Of a stretch of 38,782 nucleotides of DNA, positions 4,070 through 10,066 are shown piece after piece; positions within the stretch are counted from its first letter, which is position 1, and every line of letters starts with the position of its first letter. Made by a program: the position numbers and the translations under genes. The DNA comes from Oerskovia rustica (GTDB lineage: Bacteria; Actinomycetota; Actinomycetes; Actinomycetales; Cellulomonadaceae), in NCBI RefSeq assembly GCF_014836555.1, contig NZ_JACSQQ010000002.1, positions 174,424 through 213,205 of the forward strand, written 5' to 3'. The notes below the pieces were generated by a model that was not told the DNA's origin, ran no database searches, and saw only the letters and a program-made list of their open reading frames with translations.

Positions 4070-5176
4070 CTAGCGCGCGAGCTCCACCAGGTCATCGTGC
4101 ACCGCGACGACCGCCCACCCCCCGAGAGCGAGCTCGACGAGCTCGGAGAACCACTCCGGCTCTCCGAGGTCGACCGACAACCGCTCCGTCCCGACGCCGT
4201 CCGCACCACCCGGCGTCGCTGACCCGCCCGGCGGCAGCGACGCCGTCGGCAGGGGCCCCGTCGGCAGCGACCCGCCAGGTGCCGCGGGCACGACCGCGGC
4301 CGCTCCCTGGGGCTGCCACGTCGCCCGGACGTCGTCGGCCCGGTCGAAGAACTCCGTCGTGGCGGCGTTCGCCTCCAGCGCCGTCGCGAGCGCCTCGAGG
4401 TCGCGCGCCGCGAGCCGCAGCGCCGGAGCGACCCAGCCGGCGTTCTCGGTGAGCATGGCCTCGGTCCGACGTGGGTCCGTCCGACCCACGCGCGTCCCGT
4501 CCCGGAAGCTCCCTGCGGCCAGCGCCAGCGCCACCTCCCGGACCGGGGCGGCGGACACGAGGTTGAGCAGCTCGATCGCGAACGCGTGCGGGACATGGCT
4601 GATGAGCGCTGCGGCTTCGTCGTGCACGTCGTCGGTCAGCACGAAGGCGCGACCGCCCGCGGCGCCCGTCACGAGCGCCAGCACGGTCGCGAGCGGCTCG
4701 GCGCGGGTCCTGTCGGTGACCGTGACGGCCCACCGAGCCCCGTCGAGCAGCCCCGCCGACGACGCGGCGAACCCCGACGCCTCGGTCCCGGCCATGGGGT
4801 GCGCGCCGACGTACCGGTCCCCCAGGCCGCACCCCTCCAGGACCTCGCGTACCGGCCCCTTGACGGACCCGACGTCCGTGACGACCGTCGTCGCCGGCAG
4901 GTGCCGGGCGACCCCGGTCGCCACGGGGCGCACGGCCCGCAGCGGGACCGCGAGGACCAGGACCTCCGGGGCCGACACGCACAACGACTCGACGTCCTCG
5001 ACCACCCAGATCCCGGCGTCCGCAGCCTGCGCCCGCGTCTCGGCCGAGGCGTCGTACCCCGTGACCGTCACGCCCTCGCGGGCCAGACGCCGGGCCAGCG
5101 ACCCGCCGATGAGCCCGAGCCCCAGGACGGCGACCGTCCGAGGGCCGTCGCGGTACGCAGCCTCGTCGCGCCTCAC
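4070..5176 (-). CDS. tyrA: Prephenate dehydrogenase
   Basis: A 368-residue enzyme that oxidatively decarboxylates prephenate to 4-hydroxyphenylpyruvate in tyrosine synthesis. The N-terminal Rossmann motif is VAVLGLGLIGGSLARRLA; then TDVGSVKGPV, the catalytic-region GAHPMAGTEASGF and the C-terminal helical ISHVPHAFA and SFRDGTRVGRTDP. After about residue 285 there is a proline- and glycine-rich linker and a short tail (EPEWFSELVELALGGWAVVAVHDDLVE) in place of a recognisable ACT domain. The start is the GTG at 5176, whose GTGA overlaps the pheA stop by four bases, indicating coupled translation. The longer open frame upstream runs inside pheA and is not used. Confidence 0.93.
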   Translation of the reverse strand: MRRDEAAYRDGPRTVAVLGLGLIGGSLARRLAREGVTVTGYDASAETRAQAADAGIWVVEDVESLCVSAPEVLVLAVPLRAVRPVATGVARHLPATTVVTDVGSVKGPVREVLEGCGLGDRYVGAHPMAGTEASGFAASSAGLLDGARWAVTVTDRTRAEPLATVLALVTGAAGGRAFVLTDDVHDEAAALISHVPHAFAIELLNLVSAAPVREVALALAAGSFRDGTRVGRTDPRRTEAMLTENAGWVAPALRLAARDLEALATALEANAATTEFFDRADDVRATWQPQGAAAVVPAAPGGSLPTGPLPTASLPPGGSATPGGADGVGTERLSVDLGEPEWFSELVELALGGWAVVAVHDDLVELAR

Positions 5177-6174
5177 GCCCACAGCAGCCCCCGGTCGAGC
5201 TCGTCGGCCCCGGCCCCTGCCCGGACCGACCCCACCGGGACGTGGTCGGTGGACAGCGCCTCGTCGAGCTCCCCCCGCGCCGGGAAGACCCCCAGCGTCT
5301 TGACCGAGTCCCCCGCCCGGAGCAGCCCGTCGAGGACCTCGCGCACGGCAGGCTCCCAGGGTGCGGCGTCGACCGTCAGGACGAACACGTACTTGCCCTC
5401 GAGCGCCTTGAGCGGGCGCGTGATGAGGCTCGACAGGTTCACGCCCCCCGCCCCGAACGCCTGAGTGATCCTCGCCAGCACACCGGGCCCCGTGACGTGC
5501 GGCGTCAGCGCGAGCATGGTGCGCCACTGGGCGTCCGCCCCGCCCGCCCGTGCGGCGGCGAGGGCGACCTGCGCCCGGTCGCGTCGGACGATCGTCAGGA
5601 ACCTCGTCCGTGCGCCGCGGAAGTCCTCGACCCGGGCCTCGAGCAGGTCGAGGCCGTACAGCTCGCCGCAGATGGCAGGACCGATCGCGATCTGGTGCTC
5701 GGTCGCGTCACGGCACGCCGCAGCGTTGGACGACGCCGGGACGGGGACCGCGCCCGACCGCACCACGAAGTCCTGGCACTGGGCCAGCCCGTGCGGGTGA
5801 GCCGTGACCTCGGTCAGCTCACCGTGCCCCGGGCGGACGAACGCGTCGAACGTGATCTCCAGGACCACCTCGTCGATCGCGACGACGTCCTCGCTGCCCA
5901 CGATCGCGTCGAGCGACGGGACCACGTACCCCTCGACCGAGTTCTCGATCGCCACGATGCCGTGGTCGAGCTCTCCCGAGGCGACCCCCGCGTAGACGTC
6001 GGTCACGGTCGGCACCGGGACGAGCTCGACGTCCGCGCCGCCGTCCGTGCCGTCGCCACCCCGGGCGAGCGACGTCGTCGGGCCTGCTCCCGCGGCTGCC
6101 TGCGTGCGCACCCACCGGACCGCCGCCTGGTGCGTGAACGTCCCCTCCGGCCCGAGGTAGGCGACCCTGGTCAC
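5173..6174 (-). CDS. pheA: Prephenate dehydratase
   Basis: A 333-residue monofunctional prephenate dehydratase that makes phenylpyruvate in phenylalanine synthesis. The N-terminus is VAYLGPEGTFTHQAA; then GIVAIENSVEGYV, HPHGLAQCQ, SSNAAA and the catalytic GARTRFLTI (TRF motif). A C-terminal ACT domain (about residues 205-285) shows GVNLSSLITRPLK and GKYVFVLTVD, the phenylalanine-binding region for feedback control. The start is the GTG at 6174, overlapping the stop of the upstream gene as GTGA; tyrA overlaps its own stop in the same way. No chorismate mutase domain is fused to it. Confidence 0.95.
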   Translation of the reverse strand: MTRVAYLGPEGTFTHQAAVRWVRTQAAAGAGPTTSLARGGDGTDGGADVELVPVPTVTDVYAGVASGELDHGIVAIENSVEGYVVPSLDAIVGSEDVVAIDEVVLEITFDAFVRPGHGELTEVTAHPHGLAQCQDFVVRSGAVPVPASSNAAACRDATEHQIAIGPAICGELYGLDLLEARVEDFRGARTRFLTIVRRDRAQVALAAARAGGADAQWRTMLALTPHVTGPGVLARITQAFGAGGVNLSSLITRPLKALEGKYVFVLTVDAAPWEPAVREVLDGLLRAGDSVKTLGVFPARGELDEALSTDHVPVGSVRAGAGADELDRGLLWA

Positions 6175-7058
6175 GAGCCCACGTGCTCCGGCGCCCACTG
6201 CGGGGCCAGGGCGTCCGGCCCCGGGACGAACTCCCGGCCCGGGAGGACCGCGAGCACCCGGTGGGCGACGTCGCGCGAGGACAGCTCGGCGATGAGCCCG
6301 GTCAGCACCGAGGCGTCGGGGCACGAGAAGGACGAGAAGAAGATGTGCGGGCCCGCCGACGAGCGGTGGCTGCGCAGGTGCTGCATGTCGATCCCGCTCT
6401 CTGCGATGACCGAGAGGGTCTGCTGGAGCGAGCCGCGGTGGTCGTCGCGCGGGCCGAACGCGAACCAGACCTGTGCCTCGCCCGCGAACTCCGGTGCGGG
6501 ACGACGGGCCTCGACCAGGCCGTACCAGATCGGCGCGCCCGCGCTCAGGCGCGCGCTGCCGGGGATCTCCTCCCATCCGGCCGGGATCTCCGAGCGCTCG
6601 ACGACGAGCGTCCCGCTGGGCCCCGCCAGGGCGATCCTCTCGTCGAGCGCGGTCCGTGACGGGACGAGGCGGGGGTTCGCCCCCAGCGTCCGCAGGACGT
6701 GACGGCAGTCGCGCATGCCGGCCTCGTCGACGACGACGCTGCCCGTGGACTGCCCCGGGCGACCGGCCCACACCCACTGCGCGGGGACCGCGACCGCGGA
6801 CGTGATGACCAGCGACGGCGCCGCGGCCAGCAGCGCACGCTCGAGGTCGTGGGACGGCTGCGCCGGGTGGCCGATGTGCACGACCGCAGCCAGGTCGTCG
6901 ATGCTCGCGACCGTCGCGAGGGTCGTCGACGTGGACCCCAGGTCCAGCAGGTCGTCCGCCCCCGTGCCCGCGGGCCAGCCGTCCGCGCCGTGCCACTTCG
7001 CGATCTGTGCGGCGAGCCGTGCGTGGGCCCCCGACTCGCGTTCACTACGTCCGAGCAT
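6171..7058 (-). CDS. Prephenate-dehydratase-like protein with ACT domain, catalytic motif absent
   Basis: A 295-residue protein, first gene of the operon with pheA and tyrA. Its C-terminal part resembles an ACT domain: GSLQQTLSVIAESGIDMQHLRSHRSSAGPHIFFSSFS matches the PheA segment with GVNLSSLITRP and GKYVFVL. The preceding part follows the dehydratase fold: EAGMRDCRHVLRTLGA parallels HPHGLAQCQDFVVRSGA of PheA, and RTALDERIALAG parallels SSNAAACRDA. The catalytic TRF is replaced by a segment reading AQVWFAFGP, and the ENSVEG motif is not present. I read it as a pseudoenzyme, possibly a phenylalanine sensor or partner of PheA. The start ATG at 7058 has GAGGAC upstream. No chorismate mutase motif is seen. 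Confidence 0.85.
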   Translation of the reverse strand: MLGRSERESGAHARLAAQIAKWHGADGWPAGTGADDLLDLGSTSTTLATVASIDDLAAVVHIGHPAQPSHDLERALLAAAPSLVITSAVAVPAQWVWAGRPGQSTGSVVVDEAGMRDCRHVLRTLGANPRLVPSRTALDERIALAGPSGTLVVERSEIPAGWEEIPGSARLSAGAPIWYGLVEARRPAPEFAGEAQVWFAFGPRDDHRGSLQQTLSVIAESGIDMQHLRSHRSSAGPHIFFSSFSCPDASVLTGLIAELSSRDVAHRVLAVLPGREFVPGPDALAPQWAPEHVGS

Positions 7059-7217
7059 CGAGTGTCCTCGCCCTGCCTCTCGCGGTTGCCGCGTGTGCGC
7101 GGCGCCTGTCAGCGTCCGACGAGCAGTCTAGCGGCGGGCCCCCTGCCGACGGGGAGCGCGAGCTCCCCTGAGACGCAGGGGCCCGCCCGCCGGCCGTCGC
7201 CCGCACCCGGAAGCGAC

Positions 7218-7294: not shown

Positions 7295-10066
7295 TCAGGG
7301 CCCGCAGACGACCTGGTTGTCCGGCTTGTACGTCCACCGGTCCGACTCCTCCTTGACGACCTTCCCCTCGAGGAGGAGCTTGCGATACGTCGTGATGGAG
7401 AAGCCCGCGTTGCCCTTGGCCTGGGGTACGCAGCCCGGCCCCGAGTGCGTCACCGTGGTCGGCTCGACCACGTTCTGCTTGCCGCTCGAGGACTCCTGCA
7501 CGGTCCAGTACTTCGTGCTCCAGATCGCCACGTGGAGCTGGCCGCCGCCGATCCAGGACTGCATGAGCACACCGTAGGGCGTGTTGTTCTTGAACTTCAT
7601 GTCGATCGAGCCGACGAAGATCGTCGCCTCACGACCGGCGGGGTAGCGGCTGAACCAGTAGCTGTGCTGACGGTGCTCGACATCTTCGAGCCCCGCGTAG
7701 AAGCCGGCGTTGTAGGTCGTCGTGGCCATCTGCGACAGACCGCCACCGATGCCCTCGACGTGCTTGCCGTCCTGGACGATGCCCGCCGAGTAGTAGCCAC
7801 CGGCCGCCGTGATCGGGGACAGGGTGTCCGTCAGGGAGAACGTCTCGCCCGGCTTGACCAGGGTGCCGTTGACCTTGCTCGCCCCGACCCTGAGGTTCTC
7901 GGTGCGCTGGGCGTCGCTCGTCAGGTTCGTGGAGAACTCGGAGATCTTCTCCTTGACGCCGAGCGCCTCGAGCGCCGCGACCGACTCGGCAGGGTCCGAC
8001 TGCGTGAGCTCGACCGTCGCCGTCCGCTCGGTGCCGAGGGCGGCCGTCGTGACCGCCGAGCTCAGGGCGACCGGATCGATCGTGGTGCCTGGCTCGCCCC
8101 CTTCGATGACGGGCGCTCCGTTGACGAAGACGAACTTCGCGTCCGCTGCCTCGTCGAGCAGGTTGTCGGTCCCCGCGACGACGGCCTCGAGCAGCGTCGG
8201 GCCGTCGAAGGTGAGCTGGAGCGCGCCGTCCGTCGGGTTGAAGGCGGCTGCGGACGCAAGGACGTCGGGCGAGAGCTCGGCCTGCTGACCGCCGACCGCG
8301 ACCGTGACGGGGGCCGAGACGACGCTCTGCGCCTGAGCGAGCGCCGCGTCCGTCTCCTCCTGCGTGACGGCCGGTGCTTCCGGGGTCGTCGGGAGGTCGA
8401 GCGGGTCGGAGCCCGTGAGCCAGGAGGTGCTGATGATCTCGATCGACTCGTCCTCGACGATCTCCGCGCCGTCCTGCGCCGGCGTAGCCACGGGCTGCCC
8501 GTCCGTGAACACGACGTTGCCGTCGACCGGCTCGAGCGCGAGCCGGGCCTTGAGCTCGGCGACCTGGGCCTCGAGCTTCTTGTCGTCGACCGTCGTCACG
8601 GGCTCCTCGTCCGTGCCCCCGAAGACGTGCTTCCAGAGCTGGACGGGACTCATCGAGAACGACGTGAGCTCGTCGGCCGTCGCCTGCGCGTCGAACGCGA
8701 GCCCGGCTGCTGCCGGGTCGAGCGTCGTCGTCGAGGCTCCTGCCTGGAGCGTGATCGGCTCGGCAGCGCGTCCGCCGAGCCCCTTCTCGAGCGCAGCCGT
8801 GGCCGCCGTCGTGTCGAGGCCTCCCACGGACACCCCTGCCACGGTGGTCTCCGGCGGGACCTTGTCCGAGTAGAACCACTGCGCCCCGGTGTAGAGCCCG
8901 CCGAGCACGACGACCCCGATCCCCGCCCACAGCGCCACCTTCGGCAGGCGGCTGGGTGCCTTGTCACCGGAGATCCCGTCGAGCGGCGACCCGCCGTCCG
9001 TCGGGACGTCCGGCGCCGCCCCCTCGGGGGCGCCGACCGGGGTGAACGCCGACGCGATCGAGGTGCGTGCCGGTGCGGCGGCCGCCTCCTGGGCGGGGGG
9101 CGTCGCGGCGCCCGACGTCGCAGCGCTGGTCCACGCCGACGTCGCCGGGGCGAAGGGCGACACGGGAGGCGTCGAGCCTGCCTGTGCAGCCGGCTCGACG
9201 ACGGGGTGCATGACCTGCGTGGGCTGGGCGTCCGCGGCGGGCTCGACATCCGTGGCGGGCGTCGGCGGAGCGGCCGAGACCGGGGCCGAGGGGGTGGGCG
9301 TCGGCGCGGCAGGGGCCTCCGCGGCCACCGGCAGGACCGCCGGCCGCTCCTGCGACGCGTCGGGGGTGGAGGCAACCGGTGCAGGTGTCTCGGGCGTCGG
9401 CGGGACGACCGGGAGGGCCACCGGCTCCTCGAACGCGAACACACGAGGCGAGTACGGCACGTCGTCGTCGTCATCGAAGCTGGGGCGACGGGGCTCGGCG
9501 GCCGGCGTCGCAGCGCTCGGCGCGACCGGCTCAGCAGGAGCCGTCGGGGTCTCCGGCGTCGCAGCGCTCGGGGCGACCGGCTCGACCGGCGTCGCAGCAT
9601 TCGGGGCGACCGGCTCGACCGGCGACGCAGCATTCGGCGCGACCGGCTCGACCGGCGACGCAGCATTCGGCGCGACCGGCTCAGCCGGAGCCGCCGGGGT
9701 CTCCGGCGTCGCAGCGCTCGGCGCGACCGGCGACGCAGCGTTCGGCTCGACCGGAGCCGCCGGGGTCTCCGGCGTCGCAGCGCTCGGGACGTGGGTCGTG
9801 ACCGCCGGTGCCGACTCCTCGACCGGCCCCGGCGCCGGGTCGATCACCGCAGCGTCACTCACCGCAGACTCGCTCCCCGTACCCGTGCTGCCGGTGGCGT
9901 CGGCACGGTCCTCGCCGGCCTCGGGCGGCGCTGCCGAGACGGACTCCGCCGGAGCACCCGGCTCGGTGCTCTCGGGAGGCGTGCCGTCCGTCGGCTGCTC
10001 CGGGGTCGACACCTCGTCGTTCGTGCTCGGTTCCTGCGCGTTCTCACGCTCGGTCGGGTGGCCCAT
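7295..10066 (-). CDS. VanW family envelope protein with long repetitive N-terminus
   Basis: A 923-residue protein. Residues 1-370 are a Pro/Ala/Thr/Glu-rich, disordered-looking segment with tandem 11-residue repeats (PVEPVAPNAAS type) and an acidic DDDDDVPYSP patch. One transmembrane segment (VALWAGIGVVVLGGLYTGAQW, about 375-397) follows. The outer part has YoaR-type peptidoglycan-binding-like modules (TVAGVSVGGLDTTAATAAL near residue 410 and a second copy) and a VanW domain at about 725-850 (KPGETFSLTDTLSP, GGGLSQMATTTYNAGFYAGLE, HSYWFSRYPAGREATI). The N-in topology puts the repeats in the cytoplasm, where their threonines could be kinase targets (inference). The start ATG at 10066 has GGAGA upstream. 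VanW function is not established; cell-wall association is the usual inference. Confidence 0.92.
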   Translation of the reverse strand: MGHPTERENAQEPSTNDEVSTPEQPTDGTPPESTEPGAPAESVSAAPPEAGEDRADATGSTGTGSESAVSDAAVIDPAPGPVEESAPAVTTHVPSAATPETPAAPVEPNAASPVAPSAATPETPAAPAEPVAPNAASPVEPVAPNAASPVEPVAPNAATPVEPVAPSAATPETPTAPAEPVAPSAATPAAEPRRPSFDDDDDVPYSPRVFAFEEPVALPVVPPTPETPAPVASTPDASQERPAVLPVAAEAPAAPTPTPSAPVSAAPPTPATDVEPAADAQPTQVMHPVVEPAAQAGSTPPVSPFAPATSAWTSAATSGAATPPAQEAAAAPARTSIASAFTPVGAPEGAAPDVPTDGGSPLDGISGDKAPSRLPKVALWAGIGVVVLGGLYTGAQWFYSDKVPPETTVAGVSVGGLDTTAATAALEKGLGGRAAEPITLQAGASTTTLDPAAAGLAFDAQATADELTSFSMSPVQLWKHVFGGTDEEPVTTVDDKKLEAQVAELKARLALEPVDGNVVFTDGQPVATPAQDGAEIVEDESIEIISTSWLTGSDPLDLPTTPEAPAVTQEETDAALAQAQSVVSAPVTVAVGGQQAELSPDVLASAAAFNPTDGALQLTFDGPTLLEAVVAGTDNLLDEAADAKFVFVNGAPVIEGGEPGTTIDPVALSSAVTTAALGTERTATVELTQSDPAESVAALEALGVKEKISEFSTNLTSDAQRTENLRVGASKVNGTLVKPGETFSLTDTLSPITAAGGYYSAGIVQDGKHVEGIGGGLSQMATTTYNAGFYAGLEDVEHRQHSYWFSRYPAGREATIFVGSIDMKFKNNTPYGVLMQSWIGGGQLHVAIWSTKYWTVQESSSGKQNVVEPTTVTHSGPGCVPQAKGNAGFSITTYRKLLLEGKVVKEESDRWTYKPDNQVVCGP
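9505..9790 (-). repeat. 33-bp in-frame tandem repeats in the VanW-family gene
   Basis: The strand opposite the gene shows repeated blocks of about 33 bases (GGCGTCGCAGCATTCGG followed by GCGACCGGCTCGACC) encoding PVEPVAPNAAS/T units. Three to four near-identical units lie at about 9576-9690, flanked by diverged ones with PETPAAP inserts. The near identity at DNA level suggests recent slippage or recombination. Confidence 0.85.

Follow-up and report, generated by a model that had tools for sequence, protein, structure and literature searches.

Gene X, which directly precedes pheA and tyrA in Oerskovia rustica, encodes a protein with a predicted prephenate dehydratase (PDT) fold followed by an ACT domain, and the catalytic motifs of PDT are missing from it. 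Since the PheA encoded beside it is without the usual phenylalanine-sensing motif, X may be a separate control subunit, and we give about an even chance to the explanation in which X, as a dead PDT relative, serves as the regulatory subunit of this PheA through pairing of ACT domains. X is carried by some soil actinobacteria. PheA and TyrA of the X-linked type are called PheA* and TyrA* here, and the window denotes the whole 38,782-nucleotide stretch of O. rustica DNA that was analysed.

Organization of the X locus

The features of the locus in the window are the following.

4070..5176, minus strand: tyrA, encoding TyrA*, prephenate dehydrogenase; 4-base overlap with pheA
5173..6174, minus strand: pheA, encoding PheA*; GTG start, catalytic motifs kept, non-canonical ACT domain (GVLA, LITRP)
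6171..6174, minus strand: overlap of the X stop with the pheA start, 4 bases, GTGA
6171..7058, minus strand: gene X, 295 aa, ATG start, N-terminus MLGRSERES, from an open reading frame call
6234..6479, minus strand: ACT domain at the C-terminus of X, roughly residues 194-275; GSLQ and RSH replace GALV and ESRP
6501..7058, minus strand: PDT-like two-lobed N-terminal domain of X, about residues 1-186, placed by predicted structure and profile alignment
7295..10066, minus strand: conserved upstream neighbour, present at each of 41 long X loci; it need not belong to the system

The four-base overlap between X and pheA, reported in a preliminary description of this DNA, was confirmed at 6171-6174, and the overlap between pheA and tyrA also measures four bases. 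PheA* of the window keeps LGPEGTF, IENSVEG, AQC and TRF, and was matched by the Pfam PDT model with E 2.6e-38, its ACT match falling below the cut-off. TyrA* of the window matched prephenate dehydrogenase domains in Pfam, with no ACT domain among the Pfam matches. No natural fusion of X with PheA was seen among 83 loci (L001-L083).

The product of 7295-10066, which we take to be VanW-like, is long and rich in Pro and Ala, and repeats such as VEPVAPNAASP precede its VanW-like end. In some species this gene apparently ends at the start of X, and may therefore share a transcript with it. A TAGACT box located 5′ of X (7125-7130, minus strand) recurs in 7 of 24 loci, including all five from Oerskovia, and is a possible promoter -10 element. 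A search for a leader peptide with Phe codons ahead of X gave one implausible candidate (L075) among 24 loci, and Rfam models gave no matches within the window.

Sequence searches and predicted structure

The preliminary description had proposed to search X with PDT and ACT profiles. In Pfam, X of the window gave one match, to ACT and below threshold (E 0.054), and PF00800 gave no match at E≤1. NCBIfam matches to X of the window were far below cut-off and fell in the ACT region (phenylalanine 4-monooxygenase, E 0.11; prephenate dehydratase, E 0.14, residues 189-268), and none of the dehydratase profiles in Pfam or NCBIfam reached its cut-off. Among 35 members of the X family scanned at E≤0.1, Pfam ACT was matched by 24 and PF00800 by none, and weak NCBIfam matches were obtained to phenylalanine 4-monooxygenase (14 members), PDT (10) and a prephenate dehydrogenase model (6). 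Because no Pfam or NCBIfam model covering the PDT half was found in these 35 members, annotation likely leaves X unnamed. BLASTP of X against PheA found nothing (best E 0.44, over 11 residues at a different place) and phmmer of X against the PDB gave no matches. A single pairwise tblastn match (E 5e-4), 213 aa long and extending across both parts, aligned an X with a canonical PheA at 25.8% identity.

When the X profile was compared with that of canonical PheA by hhalign, the ACT part scored 36.9 and the full-length local alignment 40.3; none of 40 full-length column shuffles exceeded 19.0, and a reversed profile scored 12.7. The dehydratase half of X alone scored 17.5; shuffles reached 23.0, so this half is not significant by sequence, and its PDT assignment thus rests on predicted structure. 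A forced global alignment of X and PheA scored only 20.85. The ACT part of 4lub was also matched by X (E 7e-4). These comparisons indicate that the ACT part of X is clearly homologous to the ACT domains of PheA.

A first AlphaFold (AF2) model, of X from the window, was built from the 35-protein X alignment and reached a pLDDT of 86.2 and a pTM of 0.84. For the second model, a homologue sharing 49% identity with window X was taken together with a smaller alignment (A2, 21 sequences), and the pLDDT was 89.3. Foldseek against the PDB returned 3mwb as the best match of the window model (E 4.8e-13), followed by 2qmw, 6vh5, GqqA 7am0, 3luy and 2qmx. For both models places 1-13 were occupied by PDT or PDT-like chains, aligned over the whole length with 12-19% identity. 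TM-scores across these first 13 places were 0.56-0.69 (query-normalised), which indicates a likeness of fold and not of close structure, and a viral structure library gave nothing for X at E≤0.001. The N-terminal half of X is therefore predicted to have the PDT fold, as had been proposed from alignment by eye; PDTs head the Foldseek results for both models. The by-eye alignments themselves were reproduced, since profile alignment with canonical PheA sets 'MRDC' of X on 'WAQC', and the alignments with canonical PheA and with PheA* both set 'GIDMQHLRSH' on the ESRP region.

Motif loss and selection on X

TRF is described as a catalytic motif of PDT, and two ligand motifs, ESRP and GALV, are described as well (PMC10845154). 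In the profile alignment, IENSVEG falls on IGHPAQP of X, THPHAWAQC on VDEAGMRDC and TRF on I177-W178-Y179, and the forced global alignment sets the first-strand LGP on LGR. LGPEGTF, IENSVEG, AQC and TRF are all absent from X, in agreement with the loss of TRF and ENSVEG noted earlier, and the picture of a dead-type X overlapping an intact pheA holds, with the PDT motifs gone from X and kept in the neighbouring PheA. Residues H64, P65, P68, D111, E112, G114, R116, D117, R141, E154 and W178 are identical in all 66 distinct X sequences, as are G209, S210, L211, R229 and S230 of the ACT domain, in which the Glu of ESRP is replaced and the motif mostly reads RSH or RSQ. We infer that X is without catalytic activity.

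Selection on X is strongly purifying. Values of dN/dS ranged from 0.012 to 0.040 for X (8 of 12 pairs computable) and from 0.023 to 0.052 for PheA (6 of 12 pairs computable). Among 45 pairs of Promicromonospora-type X, 39 gave values of about 0.008-0.073, and the remaining 6 fell back to NG86 and gave about 0.16-0.23. Between species X is approximately as conserved as PheA, with mean distances of 0.541 and 0.511, respectively. A role for X as a missing chorismate mutase was considered and ruled out, since AroQ-type mutase matches were obtained in the window genome as well as in 54 of the 61 genomes from the family.

Distribution of X and its linkage to pheA

X was detected in 100 of 150 genomes of its GTDB family, covering 18 of 25 genera. 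In a sample of 396 genomes from the order, it was present in 19 of 35 genomes of its own family and in 0 of 361 others (E≤0.001), and in a sample of 396 genomes from the phylum the window genome alone gave a strong match. Thus, among the genomes searched, X was found in this one family only. A further 17 genomes of the phylum matched the X profile at E values from 7.6e-5 to 0.096, and the best six of these weak matches fall in profile positions 202-278, which is the ACT part. Two of the weak phylum matches (G517, G602) immediately follow a PDT match of their own genome.

A pattern-based scan of GTDB genomes yielded 53 X loci, from Oerskovia, Cellulosimicrobium, Promicromonospora, Isoptericola, Sanguibacter, Jonesia, Timonella, Rarobacter and relatives, and the X on an Oerskovia turbata contig is 99% identical to that of the window. 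In all 53 loci pheA is located directly downstream of X on the same strand (frame-broken in L042), and tyrA follows in 51, L048 being cut by the contig end and L053 showing none. The pheA behind X is frame-broken in L042 (Paraoerskovia sediminicola) and also in L027, apparently from the same genome, either by sequencing error or by real loss. Split or frame-broken copies of X occur in the draft genomes G051, G052, G067, G080 and G145. Each of 80 X genomes examined has one PF00800 match (E≤0.001), and this sole PDT gene adjoins X in 79 of them, as seen by comparing the positions of the X and PDT matches by eye; the exception is G116. The conserved neighbourhood of 41 long X loci contains genes that are presumably MshB-like and VanW-like in all 41, and typA in 37.

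An unusual PheA beside X

The PheA* proteins encoded at X loci differ from other PheAs in their ligand motifs. At the place of GALV, 51 of 52 have GVLA and one has GVLS; the Glu of ESRP is found in none of the 52, mostly with ITRP or VTRP instead, and TRF is kept by 50, with TQF in the other two. In comparison, among 90 PheAs from X-less loci (the best-scoring 30 each from the family, order and phylum searches), 82 have the ESRP Glu, 81 have E-S and 88 have E/Q-S. X-less genomes of the same family as X gave a PDT match in 49 of 50 cases (none in G036), with canonical ESRP in all 49, and the best tyrA match in the 16 such genomes examined was only 34-41% identical. A tree of PheA was built from 59 rows, of which 14 are X-linked, 5 come from a family designated f4, 10 from X-less genomes of the family, 18 from the order and 12 from the phylum. 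In it the X-linked PheA* group with the f4 proteins, and a branch of 3.09 changes per site, with a support of 100/100, separates them from the remaining 40 rows. By hhalign X is nearer to canonical PheA (40.3) than to PheA* (28.1), although the PheA* profile is shallower, so that X as a copy of its partner, including a recent duplicate of pheA*, is not supported.

Of 34 genomes of family f4, 29 have PheA*, at 178-259 bits, and 5 gave no match; the next other genome scored 120 bits. This family is probably Bifidobacteriaceae, because 3luy of Bifidobacterium adolescentis, which has the features of PheA*, is the nearest solved structure to PheA*. No X was found in f4 genomes in the order search (E≤0.001). 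Two f4 loci examined closely have the gene order typA (presumed), short protein, pheA*, tyrA*, without X. The typA neighbourhood is common to X loci, so the pheA*-tyrA* pair here is older than X or independent of it. The ESRP Glu is found in none of five f4 PheA* examined and SRP is kept in all five; the loss of the Glu thus predates X or does not need X. In the same five (L197-L201), TDF or TEF replaces TRF. Genomes of another family, f6 (G154, G172, G229 and others), have two PDT matches each.

In G116 (L258:2000-3000 and L259:1100-3030), whose X is closest to that of Promicromonospora, pheA* is gone from between X and tyrA* and X is intact. The remnant consists of the start with its four-base overlap, 16 codons and a stop. 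The only PDT gene of this genome is a different pheA beside another tyrA elsewhere, 31.5% identical to PheA* and without ESRP. X of G116 is 91-95% identical to its relatives, with pairwise dN/dS like theirs. Either pheA* was lost recently, or X does something that needs no PheA*. The interpretation in the preliminary description is partly supported; it missed the unusual nature of the partner PheA, the absence of the Glu in an X-less family as well, and the retention of X in one genome, G116, after the loss of pheA*.

Possible roles of X

In the explanation given about an even chance above, X would be a catalytically dead PDT paralogue (PDT lobes and ACT domain) whose gene forms a single overlapping unit with that of PheA*. 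The two proteins would most likely form a hetero-oligomer, chiefly by ACT-ACT pairing, in which X would provide allosteric control by sensing Phe and perhaps by activation, the ligand and the direction of regulation being presumed, and the ESRP-less ACT domain of PheA* may no longer provide that control by itself. The linkage, the conservation, the retention of GSL and RS and the weak matches to Phe-related ACT models all support a regulatory subunit, and the earlier idea of an allosteric subunit or sensor is strengthened because X is paired with an ESRP-less PheA. Several observations argue against it. PheA* occurs without X in f4, X occurs without PheA* in G116, and partial correlations of distances over 36 loci (0.399 of X with PheA, 0.398 with TyrA) do not separate the two possible partners; in addition, X is nearer by profile to canonical PheA than to its partner, and the invariant residues of the pseudo-cleft could serve a separate activity. 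A two-component PDT is a more specific and rather doubtful form of the idea, in which X and PheA* would be an obligate hetero-oligomer with a composite Phe site at the interface only and the pseudo-cleft of X would bind a second pathway signal. The ACT domain of X would then contribute GSL and RS, and that of PheA* would contribute RP of the old Phe signature.

The pseudo-cleft residues could also mean that the PDT scaffold of X has been re-purposed for catalysis or binding, a new active site having arisen in the old cleft. The polar residues H64, D111, E112, R116, D117, R141 and E154, together with W178, are invariant in the family and more numerous than the scaffold seems to need, X outlives the loss of pheA* in G116, and a PDT-fold protein described as having an added acylase activity exists in GqqA (PMC8192741), which is among the Foldseek matches (7am0). 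We nevertheless consider re-purposing unlikely, given that X is linked to and co-occurs with PheA* and that the pathway enzymes are present (an AroQ-type chorismate mutase match, PheA* and TyrA*), with no missing step identified for X. It is similarly improbable that X regulates the branch point more broadly, with TyrA* or both TyrA* and PheA* as its main partner or as a free sensor of aromatic amino acids. G116 keeps X and tyrA* side by side after the excision of pheA*, tyrA* follows in 51 of 53 loci, TyrA* has no ACT domain among its Pfam matches and X shows the same partial correlation with TyrA as with PheA. However, G116 is one genome of 80, tyrA* of f4 also manages without X, and the PDT-ACT architecture of X would make pairing with PheA through shared ACT geometry more natural.

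An X that is still an active PDT with unusual catalytic residues would fit the predicted fold and the linkage to tyrA, but we regard this as very improbable, because TRF, ENS and the SHP..Q loop are all missing, a PheA* with those motifs directly adjoins X, and PF00800 matched 0 of 35 members at E≤0.1. Nor is X, except by the slightest chance, a decaying relic of a pheA duplication. The lost catalytic motifs and the few split or frame-broken copies in draft genomes would agree with decay, but the selection data contradict it, with a low dN/dS in the range of PheA, a conservation about that of PheA and presence in 18 of 25 genera.

If a regulatory subunit is the correct explanation, an ESRP-less PheA accompanied by a conserved dead relative across many genera would mean that regulation has been moved to, or is shared with, a second protein. 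The pathway of prephenate dehydratase is of industrial interest, and the split of the family into genomes with X and PheA* and genomes with canonical PheA, together with G116, makes the subunit idea directly testable.

Comparison with known systems

Prephenate dehydratase is generally treated as self-sufficient and controlled by its own ACT domain. Among the open-licence papers listed for this subject we saw none on a heteromeric, pseudoenzyme or paralogous prephenate dehydratase. The two-component reading, if true, would to our knowledge be the first heteromeric prephenate dehydratase. With PheA (PDT-ACT; 3mwb, 2qmw, 2qmx, 3luy), X shares the predicted whole-length fold, PDT lobes followed by ACT, the ACT domain being shared by sequence as well. 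Unlike PheA, it is without TRF, ENS and the SHP..Q loops and is not recognized by PF00800, and in 79 of 80 genomes its neighbour is a true PheA. Judged by the features examined, X falls outside the PDT enzyme family. IlvN and IlvH are separate ACT regulatory subunits of an amino acid enzyme; in comparison, X also carries predicted PDT lobes and is not a bare ACT domain.

GqqA of Komagataeibacter (7am0) is described as a bifunctional AHL acylase and PDT (PMC8192741). As described there, it resembles X in its PDT fold, in carrying an ACT domain and in having an incomplete set of the known catalytic residues; the activities described are those of GqqA, whereas X is known from sequence and prediction and adjoins a PheA. 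HisZ is described as a separate regulatory protein of the short ATP phosphoribosyltransferase HisGS that mediates feedback inhibition (PMC9734150). The arrangement proposed for X would be similar, namely a separate regulatory protein beside the catalytic subunit of an amino acid pathway. HisZ is a dead paralogue of histidyl-tRNA synthetase and not of HisG, and unlike HisZ, X has, by prediction, the fold of its presumed partner. The AdoMetDC prozyme is reportedly an inactive paralogue of the enzyme that pairs with the active copy. For the deoxyhypusine synthase of trypanosomatids, too, an inactive paralogue is described as pairing with the active copy (PMC3663545). These pairs are eukaryotic and biochemically proven, whereas X is bacterial and its role as a subunit is proposed. 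By analogy, X would act like such known partner systems, HisZ-HisGS and the deoxyhypusine synthase pair.
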